Shown in pieces: positions 4,886 through 21,311 of a stretch of 48,839 bases of DNA. The position numbers and the translations under genes were made by a program. The notes below the pieces were generated by a model that worked only from the letters and a program-made list of their open reading frames with translations, made no database searches and was not told where the DNA came from. Position 1 is the stretch's first letter; the number at the start of each line of letters is the position of its first letter. Source of the stretch: a virus; IMG/VR virus record IMGVR_UViG_3300027833_000076, positions 1 through 48,839 of that record; one strand, given 5' to 3'.

Positions 4886-5332
4886 ATGGATGAATTTGAT
4901 GATATGGATGACCTCTTCAACTTAGGTGGAGATGATGGAGATGATAGAGATAACATTGACGTTTATAAACGAGCACAACGAATGATGTTTGTAAATGATG
5001 TAGAACGCTTTCCATCTGCTCATATGGCGTTATCATTAGAGGAGTTTGTTGAGTTGTTTGATTCACCGGAAGATGAGGATATTGCAATATTAACACAATG
5101 TTTTATTACTTCATATATGAGATGTAATCCAGATAATGATGCAGAGATGGGTAATCTTGTAGGTAAATGGGGATTAGATTGGTTAGGTTTATTTTTAGCA
5201 TATAATCAAAAGGTTGAGGAATATGAACTATGTTCTATCATAAAAGAAGTTATGGATGCTGGTGAGAAAAAACTTGATGAATGGAGAGCAGAAGAATTAG
5301 TACAATCAATAAAAGACCAGATTAGTTCCTAA
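4886..5332 (+). CDS. Acidic hypothetical protein, 148 aa
   Basis: The N-terminus is extremely acidic (MDEFDDMDDLFNLGGDDGDD), and the rest looks helical and soluble. No family recognised. It lies between an SGNH-like gene and a glycosyltransferase-like gene, and its stop shares a base with the next start (TAATG), so co-translation with the latter is likely. Role unknown. Confidence 0.75.
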   Translation: MDEFDDMDDLFNLGGDDGDDRDNIDVYKRAQRMMFVNDVERFPSAHMALSLEEFVELFDSPEDEDIAILTQCFITSYMRCNPDNDAEMGNLVGKWGLDWLGLFLAYNQKVEEYELCSIIKEVMDAGEKKLDEWRAEELVQSIKDQISS

Positions 5333-6021
5333 TGAAAATAATCAGAGCACTTTGGGGTGGTAATCGTATAGGTGAGATACTAAATGAGATTCCACTTAAA
5401 CCTCAACACGATGAGGTTGTTTATGTTTGGGGTACGGAAAATTTGGAGTATCTGATATCACTTGGTTATGATACTCGTTATATGGTAGATTCAAAAACTA
5501 CTGAATATTCATATGAATCGGAATATGCGTTAAAGTTAGAAGCTCTTGATTTAGCATATCAAGAGTTTAAAGAATTTCTTTTCTTAGATTGGGATTGTAT
5601 TAACACAAAAAGTATATATGGTTTAGAATTTAATTCACCATCAATGCCGTTATACTCATATCCAAAAGATTACATTCACCCAAATACTAATTTACAAAAA
5701 CAATTAGCATTATATAGTTGGGAATTTGAAGATACATATGTTATTCCAAATGCAAGTTGTATATCGGTTCAAGGTTTTAATCTTGGTAAAGAACTTAAGA
5801 GTATTCATGCTGAACATAACTTTAATACATTGGTAGAAGAGTTTGCTTTTAAAGTATTTACGAATTGTACACTTGATGAATATATTCAAAATTATGATTC
5901 ACCTTATTTATATGGCAGAGAATCATCTCAATACTTTTTAGTAGGTGGTAATAAAGTAAACACCGCAAAGAAGTTAAACAAATATATTGGTAAAAAAAAT
6001 ATTAGATTTATACATGAGTAA
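5332..6021 (+). CDS. Glycosyltransferase-like (GT-A fold) protein, 229 aa
   Basis: After an N-terminal beta strand and helices, the segment FLFLDWDCI places Asp86 and Asp88 in a DxD-like motif at the end of a hydrophobic strand. In GT-A glycosyltransferases this motif binds metal and the nucleotide-sugar diphosphate. The same arrangement occurs at 17152 (FLDLDFIL) and 18078 (FDGDIIL). It is short for the fold. Its place between two SGNH-like genes suggests joint work on one glycan. Donor and acceptor cannot be read from the sequence. Confidence 0.5.
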   Translation: MKIIRALWGGNRIGEILNEIPLKPQHDEVVYVWGTENLEYLISLGYDTRYMVDSKTTEYSYESEYALKLEALDLAYQEFKEFLFLDWDCINTKSIYGLEFNSPSMPLYSYPKDYIHPNTNLQKQLALYSWEFEDTYVIPNASCISVQGFNLGKELKSIHAEHNFNTLVEEFAFKVFTNCTLDEYIQNYDSPYLYGRESSQYFLVGGNKVNTAKKLNKYIGKKNIRFIHE

Positions 6022-7021
6022 TGAAGAGTGGAGAAACTGGATTAAAACCAGTGGTTATATTGGATATGTAGGATGTTCCTTTACATGGGGACAGGGTTTG
6101 TGGAATTATGATAAGAATAATAAGAACACCCCAACCTATGATGAATATATTTTTGAAAACATACAACCAACCGAAGAATCCGATAATGTACGAAAGGAGT
6201 TAAGATATCCTAATTTACTATCTACACATTTCGGAACAGATGTTATTTCTAAAATGATGAATGGTGGTTCAGATACACAATCATATACAATATTACAAGA
6301 TGTTCTTAATAGTCGTTCACAAAATCCAGAAATGAGTGGTAAATGGCCTTTGGAAAAGATGAGGTTATTAATATTTCAACATTCAGCATTGGTAAGAAAT
6401 AATCATGTATTCGATTACAAGGGTAAGAAGTATAGAGTCTATTTAAAAGGTGGAGAACATCATTTACAAATAGAGGATGATAACGATGAAAGAGAAAGAG
6501 GTTTTGGTTTATTTGAAATCTATCCATGGCAATCAATTAAAATTAATGGTGATACTAAAGAACAATATGAACAATGTGCACATGATGAAGATGCAGGTAA
6601 GTATGTTAGTAATGATATCTTCTTTGATTGGTTAGTAGATAATGGTATTACAATAGAAGAGTTTTGGTTACATCATTCTCGTGTATGGTTAAGAAAGATA
6701 CAAGATTTATTACTTGAGTTTGATAATCTAGGTATTCCTATTGTATGTTGGCATTGGGAAGAAGAGTTATTAGGTGTAATACATGAAGAAGAATTCGATT
6801 GGATAAGAAGTATAACTGCTCCTATTATAGTTAACAACGTAGAATATCCTTATTATACAAAAGCAACCGAGGTACATCCTAATCTATTCATAAATAAAGA
6901 TAAAGAAGCTAATAACTATCCACATGATACCGATGAACATCCTTCCAAATACGGTCATGAGATAATAACCTCCTCTATAATAACGAATCTACAAGATAGA
7001 GAAATCACCATATACCTTTAA
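6014..7021 (+). CDS. SGNH-like hydrolase/esterase family protein, 335 aa (paralogue 3)
   Basis: The ATG at 6014 (MSNEEW) is preferred over the in-frame ATG at 5987, since it leaves only an 8 bp overlap with the upstream gene. Block I is YVGCSFTWG (Ser22). Block II-like is MNGGSDTQSYT. Block III-like is LLIFQHSALVRN. Block V-like is DEHPSKYGHE, with His309 followed by a C-terminal helix. The likely activity is ester hydrolysis or acyl transfer on a glycan. It closes the operon: the next 790 bp are non-coding. Confidence 0.7.
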   Translation: MSNEEWRNWIKTSGYIGYVGCSFTWGQGLWNYDKNNKNTPTYDEYIFENIQPTEESDNVRKELRYPNLLSTHFGTDVISKMMNGGSDTQSYTILQDVLNSRSQNPEMSGKWPLEKMRLLIFQHSALVRNNHVFDYKGKKYRVYLKGGEHHLQIEDDNDERERGFGLFEIYPWQSIKINGDTKEQYEQCAHDEDAGKYVSNDIFFDWLVDNGITIEEFWLHHSRVWLRKIQDLLLEFDNLGIPIVCWHWEEELLGVIHEEEFDWIRSITAPIIVNNVEYPYYTKATEVHPNLFINKDKEANNYPHDTDEHPSKYGHEIITSSIITNLQDREITIYL

Positions 7022-7811
7022 GAAATACAAGCTAAAAGATTACAACCTCGAATGGTCATGACCAAAAGGGAATATAATCCCCTTTAACACAATTTCGGTA
7101 CATCTTATAATAATATTACAAAGAGATTTAAGAACGGAGACAATCCAAACTCTAATCATAATCTCAGTACATCAATACATCATGGGTATAACAACATAAC
7201 CTCTTGTGTATTCAGAAATTAACCGACCCCTAAATAAACACTCTCTAACACCTTCTCTACTCAGTTCTATAAGATAACTCTATAAGGAAATATAAAGGGA
7301 ATGGTCACATCATATGGAACGTTTTGAGGGTATTCACACTCCAACTCCCTTCACTTCATGGTATTTGAGTACAATGTGGGTGTGGTATTGTTTAAATAAA
7401 GTTCGGATACCACCATATATAAATAAATAAATGTGGAATTTAAGGGGACTGAATTAGGATTGTAAGCTGGGAAGATAAGAAAGACTGAGAAGATGGGGAA
7501 GAATATCTGACACTATCAATAAAAAAGAAAGGGGAAAATTTATCTCTTCGACTGAGTAAAGTATTAAAAAAACGACTTGGGTAAAAAAATTTTAAAAAGA
7601 CCGACACTTGCTTAGTGTCTATACTATTAAGTTAAAGGTTATATATTTTATTTTAAGTTATTTCTTTTTAAGTGTCTGGAGCGTCTGGTAATATAAATAT
7701 ATACAAATATATAAAACGTAATAAAAAGTTTTCAACAAGTTATTAACAATCGGAGAAAAGAGATTAAAACCTCGTAAGGAAATACCCCATGCAAAATAAA
7801 TGAAAAAAGAC
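7022..7811. other. Long non-coding region with several inverted repeats
   Basis: This is the only stretch of this length without a supported gene. It has a perfect 12 bp palindrome TGGTCATGACCA (7053-7064), directly followed by an AAAGGG/CCCTTT hairpin (7065-7085). A GTGGTAT/ATACCAC hairpin lies at 7382-7413 with an 18 nt loop. A GACACT-TGCTT-AGTGTC hairpin lies near 7603-7619. AT-rich runs follow up to about 7740. I see no tRNA, and no DnaA-type TTATNCACA box. It could hold a replication origin, an ncRNA or a decayed gene; none is shown. Confidence 0.5.
7314..7430 (+). CDS. Possible 38-codon ORF inside the non-coding region
   Basis: A frame starts MERFEGIHTPTPFTSWYLST and ends PPYINK. It has no ribosome binding site, no coupling to another gene, an odd aromatic composition, and it contains the 7382-7413 hairpin. 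It is listed only because it is the longest frame I noticed in this stretch, and is probably not a gene. Confidence 0.15.
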   Translation: MERFEGIHTPTPFTSWYLSTMWVWYCLNKVRIPPYINK

Positions 7812-7843
7812 TTGGATATATCATTTATTTTTCGTATATTTAC
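7812..7843 (+). promoter_or_regulatory. Class A promoter
   Basis: TTG 7812-7814, 20 bp spacer, then CG and TATATTTAC at 7835-7843. The ATG at 7851 is only 7 bp downstream, so transcription should begin at or within a few bases of the start codon, giving a nearly leaderless mRNA. Confidence 0.85.
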
Positions 7844-7850
7844 ATAGTAA

Positions 7851-8186
7851 ATGAGTGATAATATAAAACATAAAACTATGAGTAAATTTGAAATTTGGTT
7901 AGACGAGGTAAACGAGAAAAGAAAACAACATTGGGATGATAACTATTCCTATAAACCTTACGAACCCCTCCATATCAAAAAAGGGCAAAAGTACATGAAG
8001 ATAATTGATGGTACTACCGTATGGGGATTCGTTTCTATGTGGGAAGGTGTGTTCAAAGGAACATTGGTTTGTAAAGGAGATTTACTAAAACCGGCAAGTT
8101 GGAGTACTCCCGCTAAACATAGTAGAGGAAACATTTTTGATGGAACTGATTGTTGGGAATTCTATGGACCTAAATATCTAAAATAA
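7851..8186 (+). CDS. Conserved phage hypothetical protein, 111 aa
   Basis: The C-terminal part, with GTTVWGFV, KGDLLKPASWSTPAKHSRGN and IFDGTD, matches a small protein I recall as widespread in T4-like cyanophages and pelagiphages. Its function is not known to me. The N-terminal 30 residues are charged and helical. It is the first gene after a strong class A promoter and starts almost at the expected transcription start, so early expression is likely. Confidence 0.8.
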   Translation: MSDNIKHKTMSKFEIWLDEVNEKRKQHWDDNYSYKPYEPLHIKKGQKYMKIIDGTTVWGFVSMWEGVFKGTLVCKGDLLKPASWSTPAKHSRGNIFDGTDCWEFYGPKYLK

Positions 8187-8187
8187 T

Positions 8188-8565
8188 ATGGAAGTATCAA
8201 ATACGATTAAATGGATGTATGTTTTAATGGCATCCTTTTTGTTTATCCTTGCACAAGGTGGTGCATGGTTACAACATAATTTACAATTTAAATATCCGAA
8301 GTTAGGACCTGAATGGTGGGGGTGGTATATTGCTGCGTTACCCATAACTTGGTTGTTTCTTAAATCAACACAACTTGGTGTTGAGGGATTCGGTAACTCA
8401 TTATGGGCTAATCGATTCTTGGGATTCTCCGTTGGTATGATTGTTTATGCAATTCTTACAAGTCATTTCTTTAATCAACCAATGACTTCAAAAGTATGGG
8501 TACAAGTTAGTTTATGTGTTATTATAATGTGTGTACAAGTTTTTTGGAAAGAACAAATTCAATAA
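8188..8565 (+). CDS. Four-helix membrane protein, 125 aa
   Basis: Four hydrophobic segments at about residues 9-27, 45-60, 77-95 and 100-118, linked by short loops; GPEWWGWYIAALPITW forms the second. Small four-helix proteins can be transporters or holin-like, but no family motif is visible here. It starts 2 bp after the upstream stop. Role unknown. Confidence 0.75.
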   Translation: MEVSNTIKWMYVLMASFLFILAQGGAWLQHNLQFKYPKLGPEWWGWYIAALPITWLFLKSTQLGVEGFGNSLWANRFLGFSVGMIVYAILTSHFFNQPMTSKVWVQVSLCVIIMCVQVFWKEQIQ

Positions 8566-8572
8566 AAGAAAT

Positions 8573-9409
8573 ATGATAATACATGGGTTAGGTGATGAAA
8601 GTACGTTGGGTTGGAAATATAGTCTAAATTCAAATATATCTAAACAATACAAAAGTTGGTTGGATTCTAAATTTAATCAGTTGTACCATGAAGATTCATA
8701 TCTACCATTAAAGAAAAACGTTTGGATTGAAAATTTATCAAATAAGTTAAAATGTGATTTTAATTTACTGGCTAAAGAAGGTAGTACTAATTTAGATATA
8801 TTTAATTCTTTTGTATCCAATCTTGATTCATTTAAAGAAGGAGATGTTGTTATAATAAATTGGACAAACAATTATAAATTTAACGTTTATACTGATACCA
8901 AAGTTCATTCCATTTCTAACGTTTACGATTATACTAGTGTAACGGAGTATATTAATCCATGGCAAGTGACCGGTGTGTATAAAAATAGAAATACTATTGG
9001 TTCGGTATATGAGGTTCATACATATGAAAAGGCAATAATAGAAATTTCTAATAAAAAAAATATTCAAGTATTCTTTTGGAGTATTGATAATTTAAATCAC
9101 CTAACATATGAAGATGATACGTTATTAAAACCAGAATACATATTAGGAAAATATTTAGTTAAACATAGAAAAGAATGTAACATAACTCCATTTGGAGATT
9201 ATTACAGTGAACTAGATAAACCTTTATTTTATTCTTCCATTAACTATGTAGATAGTTTAATGATTATGATGATGGCAGATTCAAATGGAGAGATAGAATC
9301 CAATAAACTTTTGGGAGTAAGGGGTCATGATGTATTATCACATCACTTCTTTTCTCATTTTGTTAAATATTTAAAAAACAAAATAGTAACCAAAAATTTA
9401 TTATTATGA
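8573..9409 (+). CDS. Divergent SGNH-like protein, 278 aa (paralogue 4)
   Basis: The start at 8573 (MIIHGLGDES) is preferred over the ATG at 8531, which would overlap the membrane-protein gene by 35 bp. Block I is GLGDESTLGW (Ser10), closer to classic GDS than in the other three copies. Block II-like is LAKEGSTNLDIF. Block III-like is VVIINWTNNYKFNVY. The block V-like site is RGHDVLSHH (His252), followed by a helix. It keeps the order and spacing of the family but little other identity by eye. Its stop overlaps the Smr gene (ATGA). Confidence 0.55.
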   Translation: MIIHGLGDESTLGWKYSLNSNISKQYKSWLDSKFNQLYHEDSYLPLKKNVWIENLSNKLKCDFNLLAKEGSTNLDIFNSFVSNLDSFKEGDVVIINWTNNYKFNVYTDTKVHSISNVYDYTSVTEYINPWQVTGVYKNRNTIGSVYEVHTYEKAIIEISNKKNIQVFFWSIDNLNHLTYEDDTLLKPEYILGKYLVKHRKECNITPFGDYYSELDKPLFYSSINYVDSLMIMMMADSNGEIESNKLLGVRGHDVLSHHFFSHFVKYLKNKIVTKNLLL

Positions 9410-9624
9410 ACCAAATAGATTTACATGGATTAACACATGATGTAGCAGTGGATAGAGCTGAAGATTTTGTATTAATGGAATCACATAACTCTATGTTTGA
9501 ATGTAGAGTAATAGTAGGTAATTCCTCTACAATGACAAACAAAGTTACTAAAATGTTAGATGGTCATGGATTTAGATATTATATTCCAAGTTGGAATGTA
9601 GGAGAAATAATAGTTTCAAATTAA
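9406..9624 (+). CDS. Smr (small MutS-related) domain protein, 72 aa
   Basis: The protein is essentially one Smr domain. It has the IDLHGLT motif near residues 4-10, the following helix (AVDRAEDFVL), and the strand plus Gly loop VIVGNSSTMTNKVTKML that corresponds to the GKG region. Smr domains bind or nick branched or mismatched nucleic acids, and some cleave RNA. Free-standing short Smr proteins occur in marine phages. The usual GKG loop reads GNS here, so nuclease activity is uncertain. Confidence 0.8.
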   Translation: MNQIDLHGLTHDVAVDRAEDFVLMESHNSMFECRVIVGNSSTMTNKVTKMLDGHGFRYYIPSWNVGEIIVSN

Positions 9625-9629
9625 TAAAA

Positions 9630-10226
9630 ATGATAAATAACCTATTCCCAACACCAGTATATTATAGTAGTATCGATGAGGAGATATTAAAAAGACTTCA
9701 AAAAGATATTACCGAATATGTAAAAAATAATGGTGATTTATTTAAGACAGCTGTTTGGAAATGTAATACAGAAACTAATATATTTTGTGAAGAGAAAAAA
9801 GCATTCTTTCCTGAATATCTAAAAGATACTATATTTAAACACACATCAGAATATCTTGTAGAATGTGGATTCAAACCGAGACCATTTTATGTTGAAGATT
9901 GTTGGATTACTCTTGGTGGTGATGGAGCATATCAGGAGTTACACGACCATTTAGGTGCAGGTAGTACATCAAATGGATTCTCATCGGTACTTTATATATC
10001 GATAGATAAAAACAAAGGTGGGGAGTTTGTTATACAATCACCAATTGATGTTTTAGCTAAATTACTTCCTGAATCAGAAAACGAATTACTTGCTCCACAA
10101 ATACATATTGAACCACAAGAAGGAATGCTGGTATCGTTCCCCGCTTGGTTAAAACATGGAAGTTTACAATATAAATCAACTGAGAAAAAAAGAATATCAA
10201 TAAGTTGGAATATAAATTTTAATTAA
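9630..10226 (+). CDS. 2-oxoglutarate/Fe(II)-dependent oxygenase, 198 aa
   Basis: The start at 9630 (MINNLFPTPVYYS) begins at the domain. The earlier ATG at 9591 would read through the Smr gene. The double-stranded beta-helix ligands are visible: His105 and His107 in QELHDHLGAGS, distal His176 in FPAWLKHGS, and 2OG-binding Arg188 in KKRISISWN. This is the pattern of the putative 2OG-Fe(II) oxygenase family frequent in marine T4-like phages, next to the PhyH enzyme at 20110. The hydroxylated substrate is unknown; protein, nucleotide and glycan substrates all occur in the superfamily. Confidence 0.85.
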   Translation: MINNLFPTPVYYSSIDEEILKRLQKDITEYVKNNGDLFKTAVWKCNTETNIFCEEKKAFFPEYLKDTIFKHTSEYLVECGFKPRPFYVEDCWITLGGDGAYQELHDHLGAGSTSNGFSSVLYISIDKNKGGEFVIQSPIDVLAKLLPESENELLAPQIHIEPQEGMLVSFPAWLKHGSLQYKSTEKKRISISWNINFN

Positions 10227-10231
10227 AAAAT

Positions 10232-10262
10232 TTGGATATATGAAAATAATTTCGTATATTTG
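10232..10262 (+). promoter_or_regulatory. Class A promoter
   Basis: TTG 10232-10234 followed by GATATA, 20 bp spacer, then CG and TATATTTG at 10255-10262, an exact TAnnTTTG box. It drives the gene at 10283, which also has an AAAGGA ribosome binding site 9 bp before its ATG. Confidence 0.85.
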
Positions 10263-10282
10263 TATAAATAAAGGAATATATT

Positions 10283-10870
10283 ATGGCAAATGAAATGGAA
10301 ACATATGTTAGCATTAAAAATGGTAATAAAGAAGTATCCAAAAAATTAGATGAATTATTTACCCCAACGGAAGGTGAATATAATTCGAGAACCATTGAAT
10401 TGATTAATCGTTTATATAATAAAGATTTTACTTGGGATATTAGTTTAAGTAAAGATGAAAATGAAGCAAATAAAAATACTTGGCCAGAATATAATTGGTT
10501 AGGGGATAATGTTGGGAGTAAATGGATTTATTCTGAATTTGATGGTGATGAAGATTTTTCATATATTCACCTTGTATTAACAACACCATGGTCAGTTCCA
10601 CAAGGATTTCTAAAAAAACTATCAGAGATATTAAGTGATATAAAAAAAGATTGTTATATAGTTGGAACATATGAAGATGAAGGATATGACCCAATGGGAG
10701 CTTTCATATATGCAAACGGATATGATGATATTGAAGATTTAGATGAAGAAATTGATGATGATAGAATATGGGAGGATGATTTTTATACGGAAGAATTAAG
10801 AGAAAAAACATCTAAACTACAATCAGATATTGAAGATGCATATTTACAATTTCTAAATGAAAAAGAATAA
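10283..10870 (+). CDS. YubB-like (ferredoxin-like fold, DUF1281-type) protein, 195 aa
   Basis: The middle segment NWLGDNVGSKWIY followed by HLVLTTPWSVPQGFLKKLSE resembles the conserved NWGTKW ... T-WSPP pattern of YubB/Api92 proteins found on plasmids and phages. Their exact function is not established. An acidic tail follows (DDIEDLDEEIDDDRIWEDD). It is the first gene of a promoter-led operon that continues into the cytidylyltransferase, which it overlaps by 14 bp. The match was made by eye. Confidence 0.6.
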   Translation: MANEMETYVSIKNGNKEVSKKLDELFTPTEGEYNSRTIELINRLYNKDFTWDISLSKDENEANKNTWPEYNWLGDNVGSKWIYSEFDGDEDFSYIHLVLTTPWSVPQGFLKKLSEILSDIKKDCYIVGTYEDEGYDPMGAFIYANGYDDIEDLDEEIDDDRIWEDDFYTEELREKTSKLQSDIEDAYLQFLNEKE

Positions 10871-11315
10871 ACTAGGATTTACAGCAGGTAACTTTGATTT
10901 ATTACATCCTGGTTACATTTATACTTTTGAAGAAGCAAAGAAACATTGTGATACGTTTATTGTATTCCTTCAGAAAGACCCATCTCTACATAGAAAATCT
11001 AAATATAAGCCAGTAATTCCATTGTATGAAAGATATAAAACTCTAATGGCTATAAAATATATTGATGCAGTTTATACTTATCAAACAGAAGAAGATTTAT
11101 TAGATTTAATTACTTATTGGAAACCTGATGTAAGAATATTAGGTGAAGATTATATTGGAAAATCATTTACTGGAGATTATTTACCAATTGAAGTTATTTA
11201 TACAACTCGTTCACATGAATGGTCAACAACAAAAGTAAAAGATTTAATTACAAAACAAACATTAAAACAAAATCCAAATATAAATGAGAAAACTGATATT
11301 CAAAATAGAGGATAA
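10857..11315 (+). CDS. TagD/RfaE-type cytidylyltransferase, 152 aa
   Basis: A nucleotidyltransferase fold. AGNFDLLHPGYIYTFEEAKK matches the HxGH region of glycerol-3-phosphate cytidylyltransferases, except that the last His is Tyr20 (HPGY). Conserved ERYKTL and IKYIDAVYTY follow, then ILGEDYIGK and the C-terminal STTKVKDLI. Such enzymes make CDP-glycerol or nucleotide-activated heptose for envelope glycans. Homologues are common in T4-like cyanophages. Losing the second catalytic His may lower or change activity. A second family member is at 33081. Confidence 0.8.
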   Translation: MKKNKLGFTAGNFDLLHPGYIYTFEEAKKHCDTFIVFLQKDPSLHRKSKYKPVIPLYERYKTLMAIKYIDAVYTYQTEEDLLDLITYWKPDVRILGEDYIGKSFTGDYLPIEVIYTTRSHEWSTTKVKDLITKQTLKQNPNINEKTDIQNRG

Positions 11316-11463
11316 CACCTCATCAAAACAAATAGAGTTCATAACAGATAGAACACCTGAATGGACAGAAGAACAATATACAAGAAATAGAGAACCACTA
11401 ACAATGGAATTAATTAGTAATGAAGCAACGAAAGAAACAAAAGCCGTATCAAGAGAAATTTGA
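11284..11463 (+). CDS. Small hypothetical protein, 59 aa
   Basis: The frame begins MRKLIFKIED and contains TPEWTEEQYTRNR, a phrase I associate with small proteins in other T4-like phages. It overlaps the cytidylyltransferase by 32 bp and the next gene by 44 bp. The coherent composition and the bridging position support it. Function unknown. Confidence 0.6.
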   Translation: MRKLIFKIEDNTSSKQIEFITDRTPEWTEEQYTRNREPLTMELISNEATKETKAVSREI

Positions 11464-11964: not shown

Positions 11965-12036
11965 GGCCCGTTCGTCTATCGGCTAGGACGCCAGGTTTTC
12001 ATCCTGGTAAGAGGGGTTCGATTCCCCTACGGGCTA
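11965..12036 (+). tRNA. tRNA-Glu (anticodon UUC)
   Basis: The acceptor GGCCCGT pairs with ACGGGCT, the anticodon arm is CCAGG-TTTTCAT-CCTGG (anticodon TTC), and the T-arm is GGGG-TTCGATT-CCCC. 72 nt, no encoded CCA. By my recollection it is close to typical Bacteroidetes tRNA-Glu, which would suggest capture from the host. It starts 5 bp after the upstream stop. Confidence 0.95.
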
Positions 12037-12051
12037 CAAACATTAAAAATT

Positions 12052-12387
12052 ATGATTATATTAGCAATAGTACTTTTATCTATCTCATGTATCTTGTTAG
12101 CAAGAGGAGTATATAAATTACAAAAAAAAGTAAACGATTTACACAATGAAACCAACAGTAGAGTATCTGAATACTATATTGAACTATCCCAAAAACTCGG
12201 TAGGGATTATGATGAGATTCATGAATTAATCCGAGGTGTTGAAATAGAGATTAAATCAGATAATAAGAAAAAATTAGAAAAGTTAACGGAACAGATTATA
12301 AAAAAGATTCCAACAACTAACGAAGAACTATTAAAAGAAGTTCAACAGATGAGAGATGATTTCTTTGCATTAAGACAAAACTTTTAA
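12052..12387 (+). CDS. Single-pass membrane protein with coiled coil, 111 aa
   Basis: A hydrophobic helix at residues 2-18, ending in a Cys and Ala-Arg, is followed by about 90 residues of charged, heptad-like helix (KKLEKLTEQIIKKIP and later VQQMRDDFF). Same architecture as 11636. It sits between two tRNA genes and is probably co-transcribed with them. Function unknown. Confidence 0.7.
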   Translation: MIILAIVLLSISCILLARGVYKLQKKVNDLHNETNSRVSEYYIELSQKLGRDYDEIHELIRGVEIEIKSDNKKKLEKLTEQIIKKIPTTNEELLKEVQQMRDDFFALRQNF

Positions 12388-12394
12388 TATGATA

Positions 12395-12479
12395 GGAGAA
12401 ATGTCAGAGTGGTCGAATGTGCTTGACTTGAAATCAAGTGTACTGCAAGGTACCGGGGGTTCGAATCCCTCTTTCTCCG
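12395..12479 (+). tRNA. tRNA-Ser (anticodon UGA)
   Basis: The acceptor GGAGAAA pairs with TTTCTCC with discriminator G, as expected for serine. The anticodon arm is CTTGA-CTTGAAA-TCAAG (anticodon TGA). A long variable arm and a GGGGG-TTCGAAT-CCCTC T-arm are present. 85 nt. It reads UCA. A small GTGGT-ATA-ACCAC hairpin follows at 12484-12496 and may mark processing or termination. Confidence 0.95.
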
Positions 12480-12517
12480 CAATGGTGGTATAACCACTAA
12501 TTAATAATAATAAAAAC

Positions 12518-13393: not shown

Positions 13394-13852
13394 ATGAGAT
13401 GGGTAGAATACTTTAGAACATTGGCTCACACAGTCAAACTTAAATCCAAAGATGAAAACACACAGATTGGTGCAATTATCGTTGGTAACGATAAAGAAAT
13501 TGTATCTACTGGTTATAACTCATTCCCACGAGGATTGGATGATACTAAGAAATCAAGACAAGAAAGACCCGAAAAGTATTATTGGTTTGAGCATGGTGAA
13601 CGAAATGCAATATATAATGCAGCAAGAATAGGAGTATCAACTAAAGGTTGTACTATGTATCTATCTTGTGGAATTCCATGTGTAGATTGTGCAAGAGGAA
13701 TCATAAATTCAGGTATCACACGAATCTTTTGTGAACGAGGTGTTACTACTAAAGGTACACATTGGGAAGAAAACTACAACAGAAGTTGGGACATGCTAGA
13801 AGAAGCAGGAATAGATGTTCAATTTTATGATGATGAATATGGTGGGTTGTAA
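13394..13852 (+). CDS. dCMP (deoxycytidylate) deaminase, 152 aa
   Basis: A zinc-dependent cytidine/deoxycytidylate deaminase. EHGERNAIY supplies His67 and the proton-shuttle Glu69. SCGIPCVDC supplies Cys96 and Cys99, the other zinc ligands. The N-terminal KDENTQIGAIIV is typical of dCMP deaminases. It converts dCMP to dUMP, the substrate of the thymidylate synthase at 30267, and so feeds dTTP for the A+T-rich genome. The usual HAE is HGE here, a variant I have seen in marine phages. Length is normal for the family. Confidence 0.92.
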   Translation: MRWVEYFRTLAHTVKLKSKDENTQIGAIIVGNDKEIVSTGYNSFPRGLDDTKKSRQERPEKYYWFEHGERNAIYNAARIGVSTKGCTMYLSCGIPCVDCARGIINSGITRIFCERGVTTKGTHWEENYNRSWDMLEEAGIDVQFYDDEYGGL

Positions 13853-14080: not shown

Positions 14081-14857
14081 ATGGCACGTCAAAAAAATTC
14101 ATATAGAGAAACAATTAGGGAAACCAATCCGTTTGACCCTCCACAAGAAAATGTCAGACCAGCACCTCCCAAAACCCCAAACTTTGTAGGTGCAGTTGAG
14201 ATAACAAAACCATCTGGTAAGGTTACCTCAAACGGAGGTGGGAATTTCCCATCTAAATATCCTCAACTTTTAGCATCAATCGGTTCGGTTGTTAATGGTT
14301 TTTACAAAACCTTTACAGAAAAAGAATCATATGCAGCAGTGGATGTTAGTCATGTCATAACCAATAATAATGCAGTTGGTAATTTTTGTACATATCTAAT
14401 TGATGGTAGTAGTGATTCAATTTCGGGAGACACAAACTGGAGAAGTTTTACAATAAAACAAGAAATGATAGAAGCACTCAAAGTTGGAGACCCTCCAAGT
14501 GCTACACCAGAAGAACCAAGTAAGGAAACTGCTGAACCAGTAACCGTAGTTGCAGACCCTGCACCAAAAGCAAGTCCTCCAACAAATACTACTACTCCAA
14601 CAAATACTCCTACTCCAAGACCAAGAGGAATACGAGGAATGATTGGTAGAGGAAGAAGTTCCTCAACCTCAACTACACCTAGATATGCACCACAACGAGG
14701 TGGATTTGGTGGAAGTTCATCTGGTGGAGGTGGTTCAAGAAACAACACTATACTATCCGAAAACGGTCCACTTGGACGAGGTAACTACGAATTTGAAATT
14801 AGAAATCAAGGTTCTGATAATTATATTTTTAGAAATAATAACTGGAATAGATTATAA
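14081..14857 (+). CDS. Presumed virion protein with Pro/Thr- and Gly/Ser-rich linkers, 258 aa
   Basis: The N-terminal 130 residues look globular. Low-complexity linkers follow: PSATPEEPSKETAEP, then PTNTTTPTNTPTPRPRG, then GGFGGSSSGGGGS. The C-terminal 35 residues look globular again. Such linkers are common in phage tail or fibre-associated proteins. It follows a class B motif and precedes a 570 aa presumed structural protein, both consistent with late expression. No specific family recognised. Confidence 0.6.
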   Translation: MARQKNSYRETIRETNPFDPPQENVRPAPPKTPNFVGAVEITKPSGKVTSNGGGNFPSKYPQLLASIGSVVNGFYKTFTEKESYAAVDVSHVITNNNAVGNFCTYLIDGSSDSISGDTNWRSFTIKQEMIEALKVGDPPSATPEEPSKETAEPVTVVADPAPKASPPTNTTTPTNTPTPRPRGIRGMIGRGRSSSTSTTPRYAPQRGGFGGSSSGGGGSRNNTILSENGPLGRGNYEFEIRNQGSDNYIFRNNNWNRL

Positions 14858-15216
14858 TGAATACACAATTACTAAATACAGTTGATTGGAGAAAGTATCT
14901 AATAGAAGATGATGATAATCCACGAATAAAAAGATTTCTTGAATCGAGAGGAACTTCGATATTTACAGAACTAACTAGAGGAATTAATTCTGCTAATAAA
15001 AATGGTAGAAATAAAATAGTTGTAGTTGTTCATCCAAATGCAGGAAATGCTATATTAATAAAAGAATCTGAATTTATGGAAGTATATGATATAGCTATAA
15101 AGTATTTTGAAAAAAACGAAAACTATGAAGGGTGTAGTGAAGTATCAAAATACAAAAGTAATTTTATCAAAAGAAATTCAAAAAAAAGATTACAGAATCA
15201 CAAAAACTTACTTTAG
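14857..15216 (+). CDS. Hypothetical protein, 119 aa
   Basis: It begins at a TAATG overlap with the upstream virion-type gene. A central strand-rich part (KIVVVVHPNAGNAILIKESEF) is followed by a helix and a CSEVSKYK segment, resembling small conserved proteins seen beside structural genes in T4-like marine phages. The C-terminus is basic. Role unknown; late expression likely from its position. Confidence 0.65.
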   Translation: MNTQLLNTVDWRKYLIEDDDNPRIKRFLESRGTSIFTELTRGINSANKNGRNKIVVVVHPNAGNAILIKESEFMEVYDIAIKYFEKNENYEGCSEVSKYKSNFIKRNSKKRLQNHKNLL

Positions 15217-15226
15217 TATATTTATA
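15217..15226 (+). promoter_or_regulatory. Class B (candidate late) promoter motif
   Basis: TATATTTATA ends 23 bp before the ATG at 15250 and overlaps the upstream stop codon. It is followed by GTAAAGATAAACAGG, of which AAGATAAACAG recurs after the copy at 41148. Together with the downstream 570 aa virion-type gene this supports a late promoter. Confidence 0.6.
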
Positions 15227-15249
15227 GTAAAGATAAACAGGACAACACC

Positions 15250-16962
15250 ATGAAGGGAACATTTTTCTCAGCAGATTTTATTAAAACAGATAATGGACTT
15301 AAATTCATAGAACTTAATACAGATACTATGGATGTATTTGGCGCGGTTGATGATGACGGAATTGATTACTCTGGACTTATAACATTACTACAAAACGAAA
15401 CAATAGATACAATTGAAGTAATATATAAACCATCAATACAACAATCACTTGTAAACCACCTATCAGCATCTATTAGAGATAATGCCTCTTTTATCACAAC
15501 ATGGACATCACACGAAGAAGATTTCAACACAATATACCCAACTGCGGTAACCGATGCATCTAACAAATTTATTCTTAGATTTGCATATGATGAAAACGCT
15601 ATCGTTGATTCTGTATATGCTAAACATGATGTAAATTCTTTATCTATATTTAATGAGTACACTGCATCGAGTGATGCAATTCCATTCTTTGTTAGTAGTT
15701 CCGATATGCATATTGATGTATTGGAAAGAAAAACTAATCCAGGAACTTTTCCAGATATTGTTCTTAAAAGTCAATGGTCAACAAGTACTGTTTCATTTAT
15801 TAAATTAGGTGGACACTTGGATGATGGAATATATATAACTAGTGATAGCGGAACTCATGCTATAGTTGATGGTAACTATATTGATGTTCAAAACTTACAA
15901 TACACACATGATTTAGTATCAGGTAGTTATGTAGAGCAAGCGGATGGAGACTTTATTGAAATAAATGGAAGTTATTATCCAAGAATGTGGCATATGACTG
16001 GTAGTGAAGATGAGGTTGAATGGATACCTAATCAAGATTTATTACCTACACATATTTTTGTAGATGGTACATATGAAACTGGTTCTGAACATGATGAAGC
16101 TCGTATTGAGTATTTCCTATCATCATCTGCATTAGATAGTCATTGTTATTATACTAACTTTGAATATGGTTCTGGTTCGATAGTTGATAATCATGTTACT
16201 TCTATTAGACATTATGGGATTGTATATGGTTCATCTCTTACTCACCTAAGTTTAGGAACTGTTAGTGGAAAGAGTATATTAGAGTTACCTACATACGATG
16301 ATGTAAATTTTGGAGATTTTGATATAGAAGCTCACTTTTATAATAGAAAACATTACCATGAATTTTCAACTTCTTATATAAAAGAGAATAGTAGAAAACG
16401 AGGAGTATTCGAAACAGAAAATGTTGTATCAGCCAGTAACGAGATAGTTGATATAACAGATATAGTTAGTGGTTCTGTTGTAAAGGCGTTTTATATACCT
16501 GGTATAACTGATGATGAGGATTTAGCTTCTCACTTTATAAATGTATCTGTTGCAGGAAACACATTACCTGCAAATTCTGCTTATACACAATCTGTTGTAG
16601 TTTCAACACCTACTTCAATTGAGATGTGGAATAACATGATATATGAATTAAGAGTAAGTGGAAGTGATGAATCGAATTTTATGTCAACAGATACGAATGC
16701 TTTACTTTATGTAAGTTCTTCAAATGAATTTAAATTTAAAAATGTTACCTCAATAATACCTGGAGATGATTTCTTATTTAATGTAGATTCTAGTTTAATT
16801 CCAATTTTAACATCAAGTGTACATATACTAAATAATAACACAGGTTCTTTTATAGAGATGGATGTTGAAACAGAAGATAATTATATACTTGCAAATGATG
16901 CATCCGGAAATCAACAAGTAATGTTAACTGCAACTGTACACAACTTTAAAAAAGTACAATAA
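15250..16962 (+). CDS. Presumed virion structural protein, 570 aa
   Basis: The N-terminus (FFSADFIKTDNGLKFIELNT) resembles structural or conserved hypothetical proteins of T4-like cyanophages and also the substrate-end strand of ATP-grasp ligases. I do not see the rest of an ATP-grasp fold. The remainder is long, Ser/Thr/Asp-rich and beta-strand-like (repeated GSGS, VSGSVV, ASSNE), with no membrane segment. A class B motif precedes it. Likely part of the tail or an appendage; the assignment is contextual. Confidence 0.55.
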   Translation: MKGTFFSADFIKTDNGLKFIELNTDTMDVFGAVDDDGIDYSGLITLLQNETIDTIEVIYKPSIQQSLVNHLSASIRDNASFITTWTSHEEDFNTIYPTAVTDASNKFILRFAYDENAIVDSVYAKHDVNSLSIFNEYTASSDAIPFFVSSSDMHIDVLERKTNPGTFPDIVLKSQWSTSTVSFIKLGGHLDDGIYITSDSGTHAIVDGNYIDVQNLQYTHDLVSGSYVEQADGDFIEINGSYYPRMWHMTGSEDEVEWIPNQDLLPTHIFVDGTYETGSEHDEARIEYFLSSSALDSHCYYTNFEYGSGSIVDNHVTSIRHYGIVYGSSLTHLSLGTVSGKSILELPTYDDVNFGDFDIEAHFYNRKHYHEFSTSYIKENSRKRGVFETENVVSASNEIVDITDIVSGSVVKAFYIPGITDDEDLASHFINVSVAGNTLPANSAYTQSVVVSTPTSIEMWNNMIYELRVSGSDESNFMSTDTNALLYVSSSNEFKFKNVTSIIPGDDFLFNVDSSLIPILTSSVHILNNNTGSFIEMDVETEDNYILANDASGNQQVMLTATVHNFKKVQ

Positions 16963-16977
16963 AAGGATAATACAATT

Positions 16978-17127
16978 ATGGCTATTACAAAATCAGAAAT
17001 ACCGAGTTTAATTTACAAAACCAAACAAAATAATGCACAAAGTGTAACAGTAAGTGCGGCGGAAAAGGTTGAAGTAAATAGAATTATGGGAAACTTCTTT
17101 TCTTATGTTTTAGATAAACATTCGTAA
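16978..17127 (+). CDS. Small hypothetical protein, 49 aa
   Basis: The frame begins MAITKSEIPSLIYKTKQNNA, with an AAAGGA site 10 bp before its ATG, one of the few clear Shine-Dalgarno sites here. It sits 15 bp after the 570 aa virion-type gene and is likely co-expressed. Possibly a small virion or assembly factor; no domain recognised. Confidence 0.65.
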   Translation: MAITKSEIPSLIYKTKQNNAQSVTVSAAEKVEVNRIMGNFFSYVLDKHS

Positions 17128-17151
17128 ACCACATCTATATACCAATATGTT

Positions 17152-18081
17152 ATGAATTCAATATTTGTTTATTGGACAAAACCGTACCTATATAAAAACA
17201 ATTCAATAGAATATAATTCAGATAAACACAACTGGGTTAAGGGGGTTGATTTATTAAGTTATGAAGTTGAATATACAAAAACATCTGCACTATCTGCAAG
17301 TAAATATGTAGGTAAATCTATACTATATACAGATTCATTAGGATATGAAGTATTCAAAAAATATAATCTTCTCGAATGTTATGATGAAATCAATGTTGAT
17401 TTACTAAATGAATTTACAGACAACCACACATTTGATGCAGGTACATATTGGACATCTGGTAAAACATATGTAATATGTAATCAAAAAGAACCATTTATTT
17501 TTCTTGATTTAGATTTTATACTTTTAGAAAAAGTAGATTATGGATTATTAAAAAACTATGATTTAATTCACAATCAATGGGAATTGAGTAGAAATGACTT
17601 ATACGTTTCTAATAATAAATTTAAACAACTAGATTTACCATATTACTATCCAAACAACTTATATCCAAATACAAGTTTTCTTTATGTAAATAATATAACT
17701 CTACTAAAAGAGTATTGGGAACTACATAAAAAAATTATTTATAATACTGAAGTAGAAACTGGTGTAGATACTTGGCTACTTGCAGACCAAGGTATTCTTG
17801 GATATATAGCAAGATTTATGAAACTAAACATAGGATGTTTGGAAGAATGTGCATATATTTCTCATGCAGATGATTGGAAGTATCCAGATGGGGTTGATTT
17901 AAACTATGGTGGTATGCCTTATAAAGTATATCTTGGTAAATACAAATCTATATCAATTAAATATTATCATGTTTGGCTTCATAAGGTAAAGTTAATCGAA
18001 AAGGAAGAAGAAAGAACTTTATTTTCAAATAAGATGAATACCCTAATTAAAAACTTAGAAAAAGGAACAACACTATTATGA
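17152..18081 (+). CDS. Glycosyltransferase-like (GT-A fold) protein, 309 aa
   Basis: An N-terminal nucleotide-binding-like region is followed by FIFLDLDFIL, with Asp119 and Asp121 as a DxD-like metal/nucleotide-sugar site. Later, ADQGILGYIARF and ISHADDWKYPDG resemble acceptor-side elements of GT-A enzymes, and a late LHKVK follows. It overlaps the next glycosyltransferase-like gene (ATGA), so the two are probably made together. Sugar donor and acceptor unknown. Confidence 0.55.
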   Translation: MNSIFVYWTKPYLYKNNSIEYNSDKHNWVKGVDLLSYEVEYTKTSALSASKYVGKSILYTDSLGYEVFKKYNLLECYDEINVDLLNEFTDNHTFDAGTYWTSGKTYVICNQKEPFIFLDLDFILLEKVDYGLLKNYDLIHNQWELSRNDLYVSNNKFKQLDLPYYYPNNLYPNTSFLYVNNITLLKEYWELHKKIIYNTEVETGVDTWLLADQGILGYIARFMKLNIGCLEECAYISHADDWKYPDGVDLNYGGMPYKVYLGKYKSISIKYYHVWLHKVKLIEKEEERTLFSNKMNTLIKNLEKGTTLL

Positions 18082-18893
18082 CATTAACATATAGCTTTGA
18101 TTCTAGGATGGGTCTTTATGATGAAACTTCTAAAACAAAAACAACTTGTGTTTCTGATTTAAAATATCTATACGATATGTATAAAGCTTCCATGATACGA
18201 GCAAGGGAGTTTGGATATAAAATTAAATTATATGGAGATTCTATAACCATATCTAATTTAAAAGAATACATTGATAGTAGTTATTGTATTGATAATATTA
18301 AATTTGATTTAGTAGATGATTTAAAAATATGGATACATACACAGAATGATTTAGATTGTATAACATTTGATGGAGATATTATTCTAACTTCTCGATTGGA
18401 TTTTATGAATGAATTCGGATACGATGCTATATTTGAAAATAAAGAAACTAAGAAAAATGTATTAAATAAAGAATGGGATAGTTACAATGGATATGTAACT
18501 ATGCTAGAAATATTTGAAAAATATAATACTGATAAGTTAGTAAAGAACTACACCAATACTAATACCTTTTCTTGTAACGTTGGTGTTATAAAATTCAACA
18601 ACCAATCTACTAAAGATGCATTAATAAGTGGTTACTATGAAATGAAAAATCATTATCTAAACAACATAGAACCAATTGATAATTTAAGAAAAAAGAAACT
18701 AATCCCATCACTTATAATCTGCCAATATCATTTTGCAAACACAATAGAATCAAATAAATTTAATGTTGGATTTTTAAGTGAATCCAATGGACATAGGTAT
18801 TCTCACTGGGTTGGTGGAATAAAATTCTACAAAGTATGTATCCAAGAAGTATATAATATATTGAATGATGTTGAAAAAACATCTTTTATTTGA
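18078..18893 (+). CDS. Glycosyltransferase-like protein, 271 aa
   Basis: The segment LDCITFDGDIIL places Asp98 and Asp100 in a DxD-like motif. The surrounding order (Rossmann-like N-terminus, DxD at about residue 100, NTFSCNVGVIKF strand at about residue 163) matches the neighbouring gene at 17152. The pair may act in sequence on one acceptor, or as a complex. The C-terminal HRYSHWVGGIKF supplies conserved-looking His residues. Assignment is by motif only. Confidence 0.5.
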   Translation: MTLTYSFDSRMGLYDETSKTKTTCVSDLKYLYDMYKASMIRAREFGYKIKLYGDSITISNLKEYIDSSYCIDNIKFDLVDDLKIWIHTQNDLDCITFDGDIILTSRLDFMNEFGYDAIFENKETKKNVLNKEWDSYNGYVTMLEIFEKYNTDKLVKNYTNTNTFSCNVGVIKFNNQSTKDALISGYYEMKNHYLNNIEPIDNLRKKKLIPSLIICQYHFANTIESNKFNVGFLSESNGHRYSHWVGGIKFYKVCIQEVYNILNDVEKTSFI

Positions 18894-18901
18894 TATTTAT
18901 A
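18892..18901 (+). promoter_or_regulatory. Possible class B promoter motif
   Basis: GATATTTATA, one mismatch from TATATTTATA, ends 19 bp before the ATG at 18921. It would start a transcript covering GNAT, PhoH, PhyH and methyltransferase. Confidence 0.45.
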
Positions 18902-18920
18902 TGAACAAAGATGTTACTTT

Positions 18921-19451
18921 ATGGATACAACAAAAATATTTCAACTTACACTATCGAAAGATACCCTAGTTGAATTTAACTTCTCAGAAGATTACAAAGT
19001 AGTTTTTGTAAATAAAAAGAACTATCCACAATATCTTGAGCAACTATTGCACTTATCCAATCTAATGAAAGATGACTTCACTTGGGTAGGTATTCCAGAC
19101 AAACAAATGTTAAAGAGAAGATTCGAATCCTTTAACTCATCGGTACAACTATTTTATTACAACGATTTACCAATTGGATGGACGTGGGGAAATCCTAACT
19201 TCACTCCACTATGGGAAATAACGAATCAACCATTACAAGAAAATGAAATATACACTGGTGGTTCTTTTCTAAGTCAAAAAGTAAAAAAACCAAAAGGTAG
19301 TGGTACTGCTATGTATTATCTTACATATAAGAAATTTTTGTACATGGATGGAATAGATTGTTTATATGCGTATGTTGATAATTGGAATCACAAATCAATT
19401 CATCTTCTAAAAAAAATAGGTTTCACTAATTTTAATTTTATAAAGGAATAA
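18921..19451 (+). CDS. GNAT-family N-acetyltransferase, 176 aa
   Basis: The C-terminal half carries the acetyl-CoA binding pattern: VKKPKGSGTAMYYLTYKKFL gives the Gly-x-Gly loop and helix of motif A, followed by YAYVDNWNHKSIHLLKKIGF, typical of motif B with its N-x-x-S-x-x-L-x-x-K-x-G-F signature. GNAT enzymes acetylate amino groups of proteins, sugars or antibiotics. Its position beside two glycosyltransferase-like genes suggests an amino-sugar substrate, but that is inference. The N-terminal 90 residues are less conserved. Confidence 0.8.
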   Translation: MDTTKIFQLTLSKDTLVEFNFSEDYKVVFVNKKNYPQYLEQLLHLSNLMKDDFTWVGIPDKQMLKRRFESFNSSVQLFYYNDLPIGWTWGNPNFTPLWEITNQPLQENEIYTGGSFLSQKVKKPKGSGTAMYYLTYKKFLYMDGIDCLYAYVDNWNHKSIHLLKKIGFTNFNFIKE

Positions 19452-20117
19452 ATGGCAACACAAAACATTGGTAAAAATCCCCCAAAGGGAAAAGTTAGAT
19501 TTTCAATATCATTATCGGATGAGCAGAAAGAGGCTAAAACAAATATATTATATCATCCGTATAACTTTGTTCTTGGAAAGGCAGGAAGTGGTAAGACATT
19601 ACTTGCAGTACAAATCGGATTAGATATGTTCTTTCAGAGAAATATAAATCAAATCATTATAACAAGACCAACTGTATCTAATGAAGATAATGGATATCTG
19701 CCAGGTTCTTTAAATGAAAAGATGGAGCCGTGGTTAGTTCCAATTCGTTCTAATATGAGAAAGGTTTATAACAAACCAGCAATATTGGAAAAGATGGAGA
19801 ACGATGAGAAGATAGAACTAGTATCATTATCTCACTTCAGAGGAAGAACCTTTGATAATGCGTGTGTTATTGTAGATGAGTTTCAAAACTTAACTAAACA
19901 ACAACTTAGTATGGTATTGGGTAGATTGGGTAAAGGTTCTACTATGATACTTTGTGGAGACCCCCAACAAATTGATTTAAAATTTCCAAACGATTCAGCA
20001 ATACATGATGTTGCCAAAGTAAAAGAATCTAAATATGTTTACTCAATTAACTTATTAGATAACCATAGACATGAATCATTAGATGAGATATTAAGATTGT
20101 TACAAAATTATGCATAA
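19452..20117 (+). CDS. phoH: PhoH-like P-loop ATPase, 221 aa
   Basis: Walker A GKAGSGKT at 42-49 and Walker B VIVDEFQN at 139-146 are intact. TRPTVSNEDNGYLPG, the FRGRTF segment and the late CGDPQQIDL are diagnostic of PhoH. PhoH proteins are ATPases related to helicase domains, among the commonest genes of marine phages, and are linked to phosphate stress and RNA handling, though the phage role is unsettled. The length suits the single-domain phage form. The ATG follows the GNAT stop directly. Confidence 0.95.
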   Translation: MATQNIGKNPPKGKVRFSISLSDEQKEAKTNILYHPYNFVLGKAGSGKTLLAVQIGLDMFFQRNINQIIITRPTVSNEDNGYLPGSLNEKMEPWLVPIRSNMRKVYNKPAILEKMENDEKIELVSLSHFRGRTFDNACVIVDEFQNLTKQQLSMVLGRLGKGSTMILCGDPQQIDLKFPNDSAIHDVAKVKESKYVYSINLLDNHRHESLDEILRLLQNYA

Positions 20118-20724
20118 TGATTTACAATTTTATAAAAAACATGGATGGGTACATTTACAAAAAAAGATAAGTGAAGATGTAGTTCATGAATTACAAACTC
20201 GTTCTATTAAATTAAGAAAATGGGTAAATGATAAGATAGGTCAACCTTGTAAATATGGTGGAGATACTCATTGGAAAGGGGTAGGTTGTGCAGGTATGTA
20301 TGATACCTATCTTTTAGATTTTTATAAATCAAATCTCATGATTGATATTGCAAAAAAACTTTTAAATACTGAAGATGTTTGGTTGTATAACGACCAGGTT
20401 GTTGTTAAATTACCCAATGATAATTTTGGATTTGAAGAACATACTGATAATTCAATCGGAGGTAACTTTAATGAAGGTGGTAATACAATAAATATGTCCG
20501 TAATACTAACTGATTTTACGGATGAAAACGGAACACTACAATTAAGAGATACGAAGATATATCCAAAAGCTGGAGATATTGTTGTAATACATGGAGATAC
20601 TCCTCATCAATCAAACCCAAACAACTCAGATAAACCCAGATGTTTATATGCGTGTGTTTATAGTGATAAACAAATTATTTTTAAAAACTTCTATAAAGAA
20701 AGAATAGTAAAATCTATTATATGA
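20110..20724 (+). CDS. PhyH-type Fe(II)/2-oxoglutarate dioxygenase, 204 aa
   Basis: A phytanoyl-CoA hydroxylase-like fold. The iron ligands His111 and Asp113 (FEEHTDNS) and His166 (GDTPHQSNP) are present, with Arg177 for 2-oxoglutarate. GTLQLRDTKIYPKAGDIVVIHG is typical of the family. Family members hydroxylate lipids, small metabolites, sugars and nucleosides. The N-terminal FYKKHGWVHL is the usual family opening. It overlaps phoH by 8 bp and the methyltransferase by 4 bp, so it may act on the same substrate as the latter. Confidence 0.85.
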   Translation: MHNDLQFYKKHGWVHLQKKISEDVVHELQTRSIKLRKWVNDKIGQPCKYGGDTHWKGVGCAGMYDTYLLDFYKSNLMIDIAKKLLNTEDVWLYNDQVVVKLPNDNFGFEEHTDNSIGGNFNEGGNTINMSVILTDFTDENGTLQLRDTKIYPKAGDIVVIHGDTPHQSNPNNSDKPRCLYACVYSDKQIIFKNFYKERIVKSII

Positions 20725-21311
20725 ATACTCAAAGATTACATACACCACATTGGTTCAAAGGTAATATAAATAATATGTTCTTTGGGTTTGTAGATATGCT
20801 AACGGAACTTAAAACTATAAAGGATAAGAACACTACTATGATTGAGATAGGTTCTTATATGGGAGAATCCACGATGCTATTTGCATCATCTCAAATATTT
20901 GATAAGATTTATACAATAGAACCACATGAGGGACACGAGATATTTAACGAGAACCATGATTATTCTTGGGAACTTGTTAAACAACAATTCGAAATAAATA
21001 CACGATACTTTGATAACATATCTTTAATATCAGATTATAGTTACAATGTTGTTGATACCTTTGAAGATAATAGTATAGATTTTATTTACATAGATGCTAA
21101 TCACTTATACGAATCAGTAAAGCAAGATTTAACATTGTATTATCCTAAAGTAAAACCAGGTGGATATATTGGTGGTCATGATTATCAAAAAGATTGGCCT
21201 GGTGTAGTTACTGCAATACATGAGATAATTGGATATCCTGAAAAGGTATTTGATGATGGTTCTTGGATTAAACAAAAACCCAAAAAAATAAGTCAAAAAA
21301 GACTTGTATAA
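20721..21311 (+). CDS. Class I SAM-dependent methyltransferase (Methyltransf_24 type), 196 aa
   Basis: Motif I is MIEIGSYMGESTMLFA. The acidic ribose-contact residue falls in YTIEPHEGHE. IDFIYIDANHLYESVKQDL and VKPGGYIGGHDY match the Methyltransf_24 group, which acts on sugars and other small acceptors and shares motifs with cephalosporin hydroxylase-like enzymes. Metal-binding Asp/His residues (DANH, GGHDY) are visible. The SAM synthetase at 32064 could supply its cofactor. It is the last gene of the operon; a class A promoter starts inside its final codons. Confidence 0.8.
   Translation: MNTQRLHTPHWFKGNINNMFFGFVDMLTELKTIKDKNTTMIEIGSYMGESTMLFASSQIFDKIYTIEPHEGHEIFNENHDYSWELVKQQFEINTRYFDNISLISDYSYNVVDTFEDNSIDFIYIDANHLYESVKQDLTLYYPKVKPGGYIGGHDYQKDWPGVVTAIHEIIGYPEKVFDDGSWIKQKPKKISQKRLV

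Follow-up and report, generated by a model that had tools for sequence, protein, structure and literature searches.

The stretch of DNA analysed here (the window) comes from a marine phage and is positions 1 to 48,839 of the IMG/VR virus record IMGVR_UViG_3300027833_000076, a linear DNA of 48,839 bases and 31% GC whose major genes all lie on the plus strand, as do the protein genes of the window described below. Comparison of the baseplate wedge protein gp6 identifies the virus as a T4-like myovirus; its closest isolates by this protein are distant (42% for Microcystis phage Mel-JY01 and 38% for Flavobacterium phages Immuto), and metagenomic contigs hold many near relatives. An earlier, sequence-only reading had proposed that glycosyltransferases, cytidylyltransferases, oxygenases and further sugar-type enzymes assigned to positions 5332 to 21311 form one undescribed pathway that decorates the virion, the host envelope or DNA. 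We retrieved the contigs of twenty relatives and compared them against all window genes, using conservation in relatives to judge whether an arrangement exceeds chance and counting relatives G002 and G017 as one lineage. The relatives were obtained as whole contigs through genes other than the glycosyltransferase candidates GT1 and GT3; single-sequence scans of IMG/VR with each of these two returned no relatives.

Enzyme genes in two variable slots

Most of the enzyme genes occupy two variable cargo slots, at 1.7-11.3 kb and 13.9-22.5 kb of the window. The first slot adjoins tRNA genes, five of which are present in the window (3247-3619 and 11965-12480), and holds four SGNH-like candidates together with the genes GT1, 2OG1 and CTt1. 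The first SGNH-like candidate (1676..2989) has an N-terminal GTGCSYG-type start, a 47% identical orthologue in G017 and a weak match (24%) in G034, while the second (3914..4876) has a GCSFTEG start, a sub-threshold match to DUF6071 and an iterated profile that gathers 37 proteins in relatives, SGNH/GDSL-like ones among them. For the third (6014..7021) the assignment is based on profile members in relatives and an alignment, and for the fourth (8576..9409) on a profile and on an orthologue found in G017 only (54%). None of the four has a significant Pfam or PHROG match, and it is their profiles that link the set to GDSL-like relatives. GT1 (5332..6021) is a putative DxD glycosyltransferase for which a DWD motif is the only basis: it has no Pfam or other family match and no profile match to GT3, its structure model is poor (predicted local distance difference test, pLDDT, 43) and unfit for a structure search, and its single relative is in G017 (62%). 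2OG1 (9630..10226) is a 2-oxoglutarate (2OG)-Fe(II) oxygenase (2OG-FeII_Oxy_5, E 8e-13; phrog_81) with orthologues in G002 (82%) and G017 (84%) and no others. CTt1 (10857..11315; CTP_transf_like, E 3e-14) belongs to a TagD-like cytidylyltransferase subfamily. Its nearest solved structure is the glycerol-3-phosphate cytidylyltransferase TagD (1coz), with which it shares the STT motif; unlike TagD, CTt1 and, in relatives, CTt3 have HPGY in place of the HxGH signature, a replacement seen in 14 of 14 motif-bearing members of their subfamily.

The second slot surrounds the backbone gene phoH (19452..20117; 46-93% identity in relatives) and is bordered on the left by a dCMP deaminase gene (13394..13852; Pfam match, 58-91% in relatives) and on the right by a HAD-like gene (22570..23088; named from its sequence rather than from a family match, 61-81% conserved). 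GT2 (17152..18081) is a GT-A-like glycosyltransferase (DUF6734, E 7e-7) homologous to GT3 (hhalign probability 92.5%, E 5e-7). GT3 (18078..18893) has a DGD motif and no family match, and its DxD is invariant across 10 homologues. The AlphaFold2 model of GT3 (pLDDT 80; predicted template-modelling score, pTM, 0.83) matches GT8/GT-A enzymes in Foldseek, namely glycogenin, LgtC and UGGT (E ~1e-5 to 7e-5, with modest TM scores of 0.33-0.51), which supports a predicted GT-A fold of the GT8-like type. The GNAT-type acetyltransferase to the left of phoH (18921..19451) falls below Pfam cut-offs, and the profile of its ten-member family reaches PDB acetyltransferases (E 3.5e-4), a weak but supported identification. 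To the right of phoH lie PhyH, a 2OG/Fe(II) dioxygenase (20110..20724; Pfam E 3e-10, HTD motif kept), and MT24, a TylF-like methyltransferase (20721..21311; Methyltransf_24, E 1.5e-19; TylF, E 3.5e-5). A phrog_2675 match would label MT24 a DNA methyltransferase; this label was set aside, and not used as evidence for DNA modification, because Pfam assigns the protein to Methyltransf_24/TylF. The slot also contains, at 15250-16962, a fast-evolving protein of 570 residues (start MKGTFFSADFI...ELNTDT) that has no Pfam match and occurs in the PhoH slot of many relatives.

The inventory of the sequence-only reading thus held up in large part. Pfam supports both Fe(II)/2OG oxygenases, two cytidylyltransferase-like proteins, the Methyltransf_24 enzyme and a carbamoyltransferase; two of the three DxD glycosyltransferases (GT2 and GT3) and, through its family profile, the GNAT gain support as described above, while GT1 keeps only its motif. 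The proposed interval covers most of these genes but not the second cytidylyltransferase gene (from 33081) or the carbamoyltransferase gene (from 36600), which lie 12-15 kb outside it.

Baseplate genes, a sigma-like gene, peptide deformylase, the second cytidylyltransferase and the carbamoyltransferase are common to many relatives. Among the twenty relatives, orthologues of GT1 and the SGNH-like genes at about 40% identity or more occur in G017 only, and those of GT2, GT3 and 2OG1 in the G002/G017 lineage only; the remaining matches to island genes are just 24-31% identical. The patchiness of GT1 and of GT2-GT3 holds among contigs that include the position concerned. With phoH as the anchor 80 loci were obtained, and the slot was compared in those sharing the window neighbourhood. 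The stretch between the dCMP deaminase and HAD-like genes ranges from 3.6 to 16.8 kb (16 records) and its content differs from phage to phage: other phages have different glycosyltransferases, sulfotransferases, radical S-adenosylmethionine (radical-SAM), SGNH or 2OG genes there, or none, and five compact records (L272, L275, L282, L293 and G008) have no window toolkit gene in the slot. Pfam assignments of 61 slot proteins include 2OG-FeII_Oxy_3 (12), radical-SAM (5) and GT25 (2), along with sulfotransferases, SET, MT24, DUF6734 and others. Since its content varies and is rich in sugar, sulfate, methyl and hydroxylation enzymes, the slot is a cargo site biased to surface-type chemistry. Repeats in the PhoH slot, whether direct or inverted, amounted to no more than short, weak matches.

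What recurs are units of two or three genes: GNAT-PhoH, GT2-GT3 and PhyH-methyltransferase. The GNAT gene is upstream of phoH in eight relatives, with a ninth found by profile. A PhyH homologue is paired with a methyltransferase in L295 (5397-6600) and L297 (5399-6590), where the pair lies in the head-gene operon between the maturation protease and the major head protein, a position that hints at a virion-protein target.

Such small units and patchy islands would also be expected if the genes were unconnected cargo serving separate purposes, such as iron-dependent hydroxylation, nucleotide and tRNA metabolism or defence evasion, with no shared chemistry. In agreement with this, marine myophages very often carry 2OG oxygenases, for which unrelated roles have been proposed (PMC3037559). 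However, the genes that replace one another in the same slot are again mostly sugar, sulfate, methyl and hydroxylation enzymes, and the same species has matching families in a densely packed, conserved cluster, described below. We regard unconnected cargo as a somewhat unlikely explanation.

The carbamoyltransferase and the question of DNA modification

The carbamoyltransferase gene (36600..38300) encodes a NodU/TobZ-type enzyme with both the N- and C-terminal domains (E 1.6e-68 and 3.4e-64) and near full-length PDB matches. The enzyme resembles TobZ, GdmN and decarbamoylnovobiocin carbamoyltransferase, as well as phrog_1601 (Nol-like), in having both domains and the key residues; its best annotated phage homologues are ~28-31% identical, and the family is present in 145 phage records. 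Enzymes of the NodU/TobZ type carbamoylate a hydroxyl group of a small molecule or sugar. Unlike other NodU/TobZ enzymes, the window carbamoyltransferase has a fixed place beside baseplate genes: in 10 of 13 baseplate-anchored records its gene lies between the sigma-like gene and the baseplate genes. An earlier tally of 80 of 83 was discarded as biased, because most of those records had been fetched with the carbamoyltransferase gene itself. As the gene is widespread beside the baseplate genes, its occurrence is not tied to that of the islands. The second cytidylyltransferase-like gene, CTt2 (33081..33554; CTP_transf_like, E 4e-11), has an intact HKGH motif, is 63-82% identical in relatives and is a lineage backbone gene; we place CTt2 and the carbamoyltransferase as inherited genes of the phage lineage.

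What is the substrate of the carbamoyltransferase? One possibility is pyrimidine hypermodification of DNA, for example by carbamoylation of 5-hydroxymethylcytosine (5hmC). The characterised 5hmC carbamoyltransferase, from a phage contig, belongs to the same superfamily. Its partner is a dCMP-type homologue of thymidylate synthase, and dCMP deaminase and thymidylate synthase domains are found alongside members of its family (PMC8670742). All three families are present in the window, so that the gene combination of the known route is in place, but residue tests speak against that route. The window thymidylate synthase (30267..31289) has Asn177 and His147 and is not of the dCMP hydroxymethylase type; Asn177, which marks the dUMP type, is found in nine of nine homologues rather than the dCMP-type Asp177. 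Likewise, W408, G421 and R423 (TobZ numbering) are kept in 17 of 17 carbamoyltransferases, whereas the 5hmC enzyme, 24% identical to the window-type carbamoyltransferase, has I, C and T at these specificity-associated positions. These two patterns disfavour 5hmC carbamoylation, and with it DNA as a decorated substrate by the known route, and the scanned proteins include no DNA-glycosyltransferase or hydroxymethylase family. We therefore consider DNA hypermodification highly improbable. In three of the loci examined, an SGNH domain, glycosyltransferase or methyltransferase is fused to a cellular relative of the carbamoyltransferase or lies near it, and these neighbours together with the residue pattern favour a sugar-type acceptor, though the acceptor itself we can only infer.

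The cluster after the giant fibre gene

G013 is the same species as the window phage (98.9% identical over 13.5 kb) and extends 40 kb past the window. About 30 kb to the right of gp6, directly after a giant Ser/Thr-rich fibre-like gene (2,447 residues in G013), it has a cluster that starts with a glycosyltransferase-like gene, a Methyltransf_24 gene, a GT2-type gene and three GT7 genes and goes on to a cytidylyltransferase gene, two radical-SAM genes, a GDSL gene, a DUF5672 gene and an epimerase gene; GT25 and sulfotransferase genes are located shortly before it. Two of the three GT7 genes are fused to Laminin_G_3 lectin-like domains. Fusions of GT7 (beta-1,4-galactosyltransferase-like) with Laminin_G_3 stand in the post-fibre cluster at L196:11092-12543 and L196:9237-10682 (minus strand). 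The species does have a conserved surface-chemistry locus, but it lies outside the window.

All 12 contigs of the lineage that extend to the cluster carry its core, as does the divergent G036 (gp6 56% identical). Every carbamoyltransferase-positive relative with a long enough contig has it, and in the carbamoyltransferase-negative G008 and G040 the GT2_4, GT7 and sulfotransferase genes are absent while the backbone neighbours are kept. Two further carbamoyltransferase-negative relatives, G010 and G060, are nested in the positive clade, and their contigs end before the cluster position, so that they have no bearing on the link. We give no p-value for the association of carbamoyltransferase and cluster, since there are too few independent changes on the gp6 tree.

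The distribution of the cluster also bears on the proposal that all of the named genes form one undescribed pathway acting on a single substrate. Serial action of these enzyme families on one sugar is conceivable in principle. The genes do not co-occur as a set across related phages, however; only the three small units recur, most of the genes are exchangeable cargo, and, unlike the others, CTt2 and the carbamoyltransferase go with the backbone. Moreover, GT1, GT2, GT3 and 2OG1 are all absent from G034 and G035, which have both the carbamoyltransferase and the cluster. A single pathway is therefore scarcely credible.

The fibre-like protein is 22-26% Ser+Thr, and its G035 homologue matches tail-fibre PHROGs; the G001 and G016 versions have no tail-fibre family match. 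In the G001 fibre-like protein (L181:6178-13650, minus strand) the C-terminal part contains an intein/Hint-like stretch that starts C-VLPGTKII..., ends ...SDGILSHN followed by Met, and has as its best solved match the bacterial intein-like (BIL) domain 2lwy (E 3e-5). The G016 fibre-like protein has a weak Pfam intein match.

Acceptors of the predicted decoration

We think it probable, though well short of certain, that the window carries exchangeable cargo in its two slots together with an inherited carbamoyltransferase and CTt2 that accompany the post-fibre cluster, and that virion decoration is the most likely function. Phages swap small cassettes of sugar- and surface-type enzymes through such slots. 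The identities of the genes, their variability, the conserved neighbours and the continuation in the same species are observed, whereas we infer the acceptor, the order of steps and their timing as follows. Late in infection, soluble cytidylyltransferases and the epimerase may activate sugars or polyols, which GT7, GT2 and GT-A enzymes would attach; the attached sugars may then be capped with methyl, acetyl, sulfate and carbamoyl groups. A simple hydropathy scan predicts no membrane segments in the toolkit or cluster enzymes, in line with soluble proteins. The likeliest acceptor would be a virion protein, either the long fibre or a different one, followed by a host surface glycan, and through the exchangeable cassettes each phage would come to differ in its decoration.

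Several points weigh against this interpretation. The post-fibre location could suit a function at the host envelope equally well. The fibre-like protein of the window species itself has no direct fibre-family match, and several cluster proteins have no family match. The carbamoyltransferase and the cluster share about one change of presence on the gp6 tree, which confounds the link between them with ancestry. In addition, the relatives are metagenomic fragments only, and absences are valid just within the contig ends.

A more far-reaching version of the decoration reading is that the phage has a complete, late-expressed line for decorating the giant Ser/Thr-rich fibre. Its core would comprise the lectin-fused GT7s, the GT2-type enzyme, the HPGY cytidylyltransferase, the methyltransferase, the radical-SAM enzymes and the distant carbamoyltransferase, which together would build a sulfated, methylated and carbamoylated glycan, while the cassettes of the PhoH and tRNA slots would alter its outer groups. 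If true, this would amount to glycan-based antigenic or receptor variation of the virion; we consider it unlikely.

An alternative to virion decoration is remodelling of the host envelope, in which an early change of host lipopolysaccharide (LPS), capsule or other surface glycan blocks competing phages. Pelagimyophages have been interpreted in this way in the literature, with GT8 as their most frequent glycosyltransferase family (PMC7029224), and the predicted fold of GT3 is GT8-like; the cellular relatives of the carbamoyltransferase, too, lie in polysaccharide-type loci. On the other hand, the toolkit and cluster proteins include no membrane-embedded flippase, polymerase or lipid-linked glycosyltransferase, and the conserved cluster sits among virion genes, between fibre and terminase genes (in G014, terminase and portal genes come after it). 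We see envelope remodelling as a serious but less likely possibility.

The system is of a kind already known, although the earlier reading had suggested that it may be undescribed. In pelagimyophages, fibre genes, glycosyltransferases and radical-SAM cassettes make up a host-recognition cluster, and further glycosyltransferase genes are scattered through the genome in twos and threes (PMC7029224). Islands of this kind in marine T4-like phages lie between VrlC and gp14. The window phage is like these pelagimyophages and cyanomyophages in having a fibre and glycosyltransferase island in the structural region, here outside the window, in its dispersed small groups (GT2-GT3-GNAT and PhyH-MT24) and in the GT8-like GT3; it differs in its lineage, in a post-fibre core that is conserved rather than wholly replaced, and in its GT7s fused to lectin-like domains and widespread carbamoyltransferase. 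Cyanophages P-SSM2, S-SM2 and S-SSM7 have LPS clusters near phoH and tRNAs (PMC3037559), again sugar-type genes beside phoH and near tRNA genes in a T4-like genome, whereas the slot described here holds small cassettes that mostly differ per relative. The window case is thus the same kind of system in another lineage, distinguished by the lectin-fused GT7 enzymes, the HPGY cytidylyltransferase subfamily and the lineage-wide carbamoyltransferase. A search of the literature for hypervariable loci of marine phages that carry sulfotransferase and radical-SAM genes found no paper. The comparison tells a conserved glycan-type locus apart from exchangeable cargo in an abundant, uncultured phage lineage and places the carbamoyltransferase as a lineage gene with a probable non-DNA function. 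It also puts forward a specific candidate acceptor, the giant fibre, for phage islands rich in glycosyltransferases, the role of which is still under debate.

Two further genes may be mentioned. Near the peptide deformylase and thymidylate synthase genes, the window encodes an S-adenosylmethionine synthetase (32064-33029; three Pfam domains), which could supply methyltransferases and radical-SAM enzymes. After the cluster, L217:6309-11249 encodes a protein of 1,646 residues with CTP_transf_like, HD and poly(A)-polymerase/CCA-type head domains, and its homologues in relatives are 1,335-1,853 residues long.

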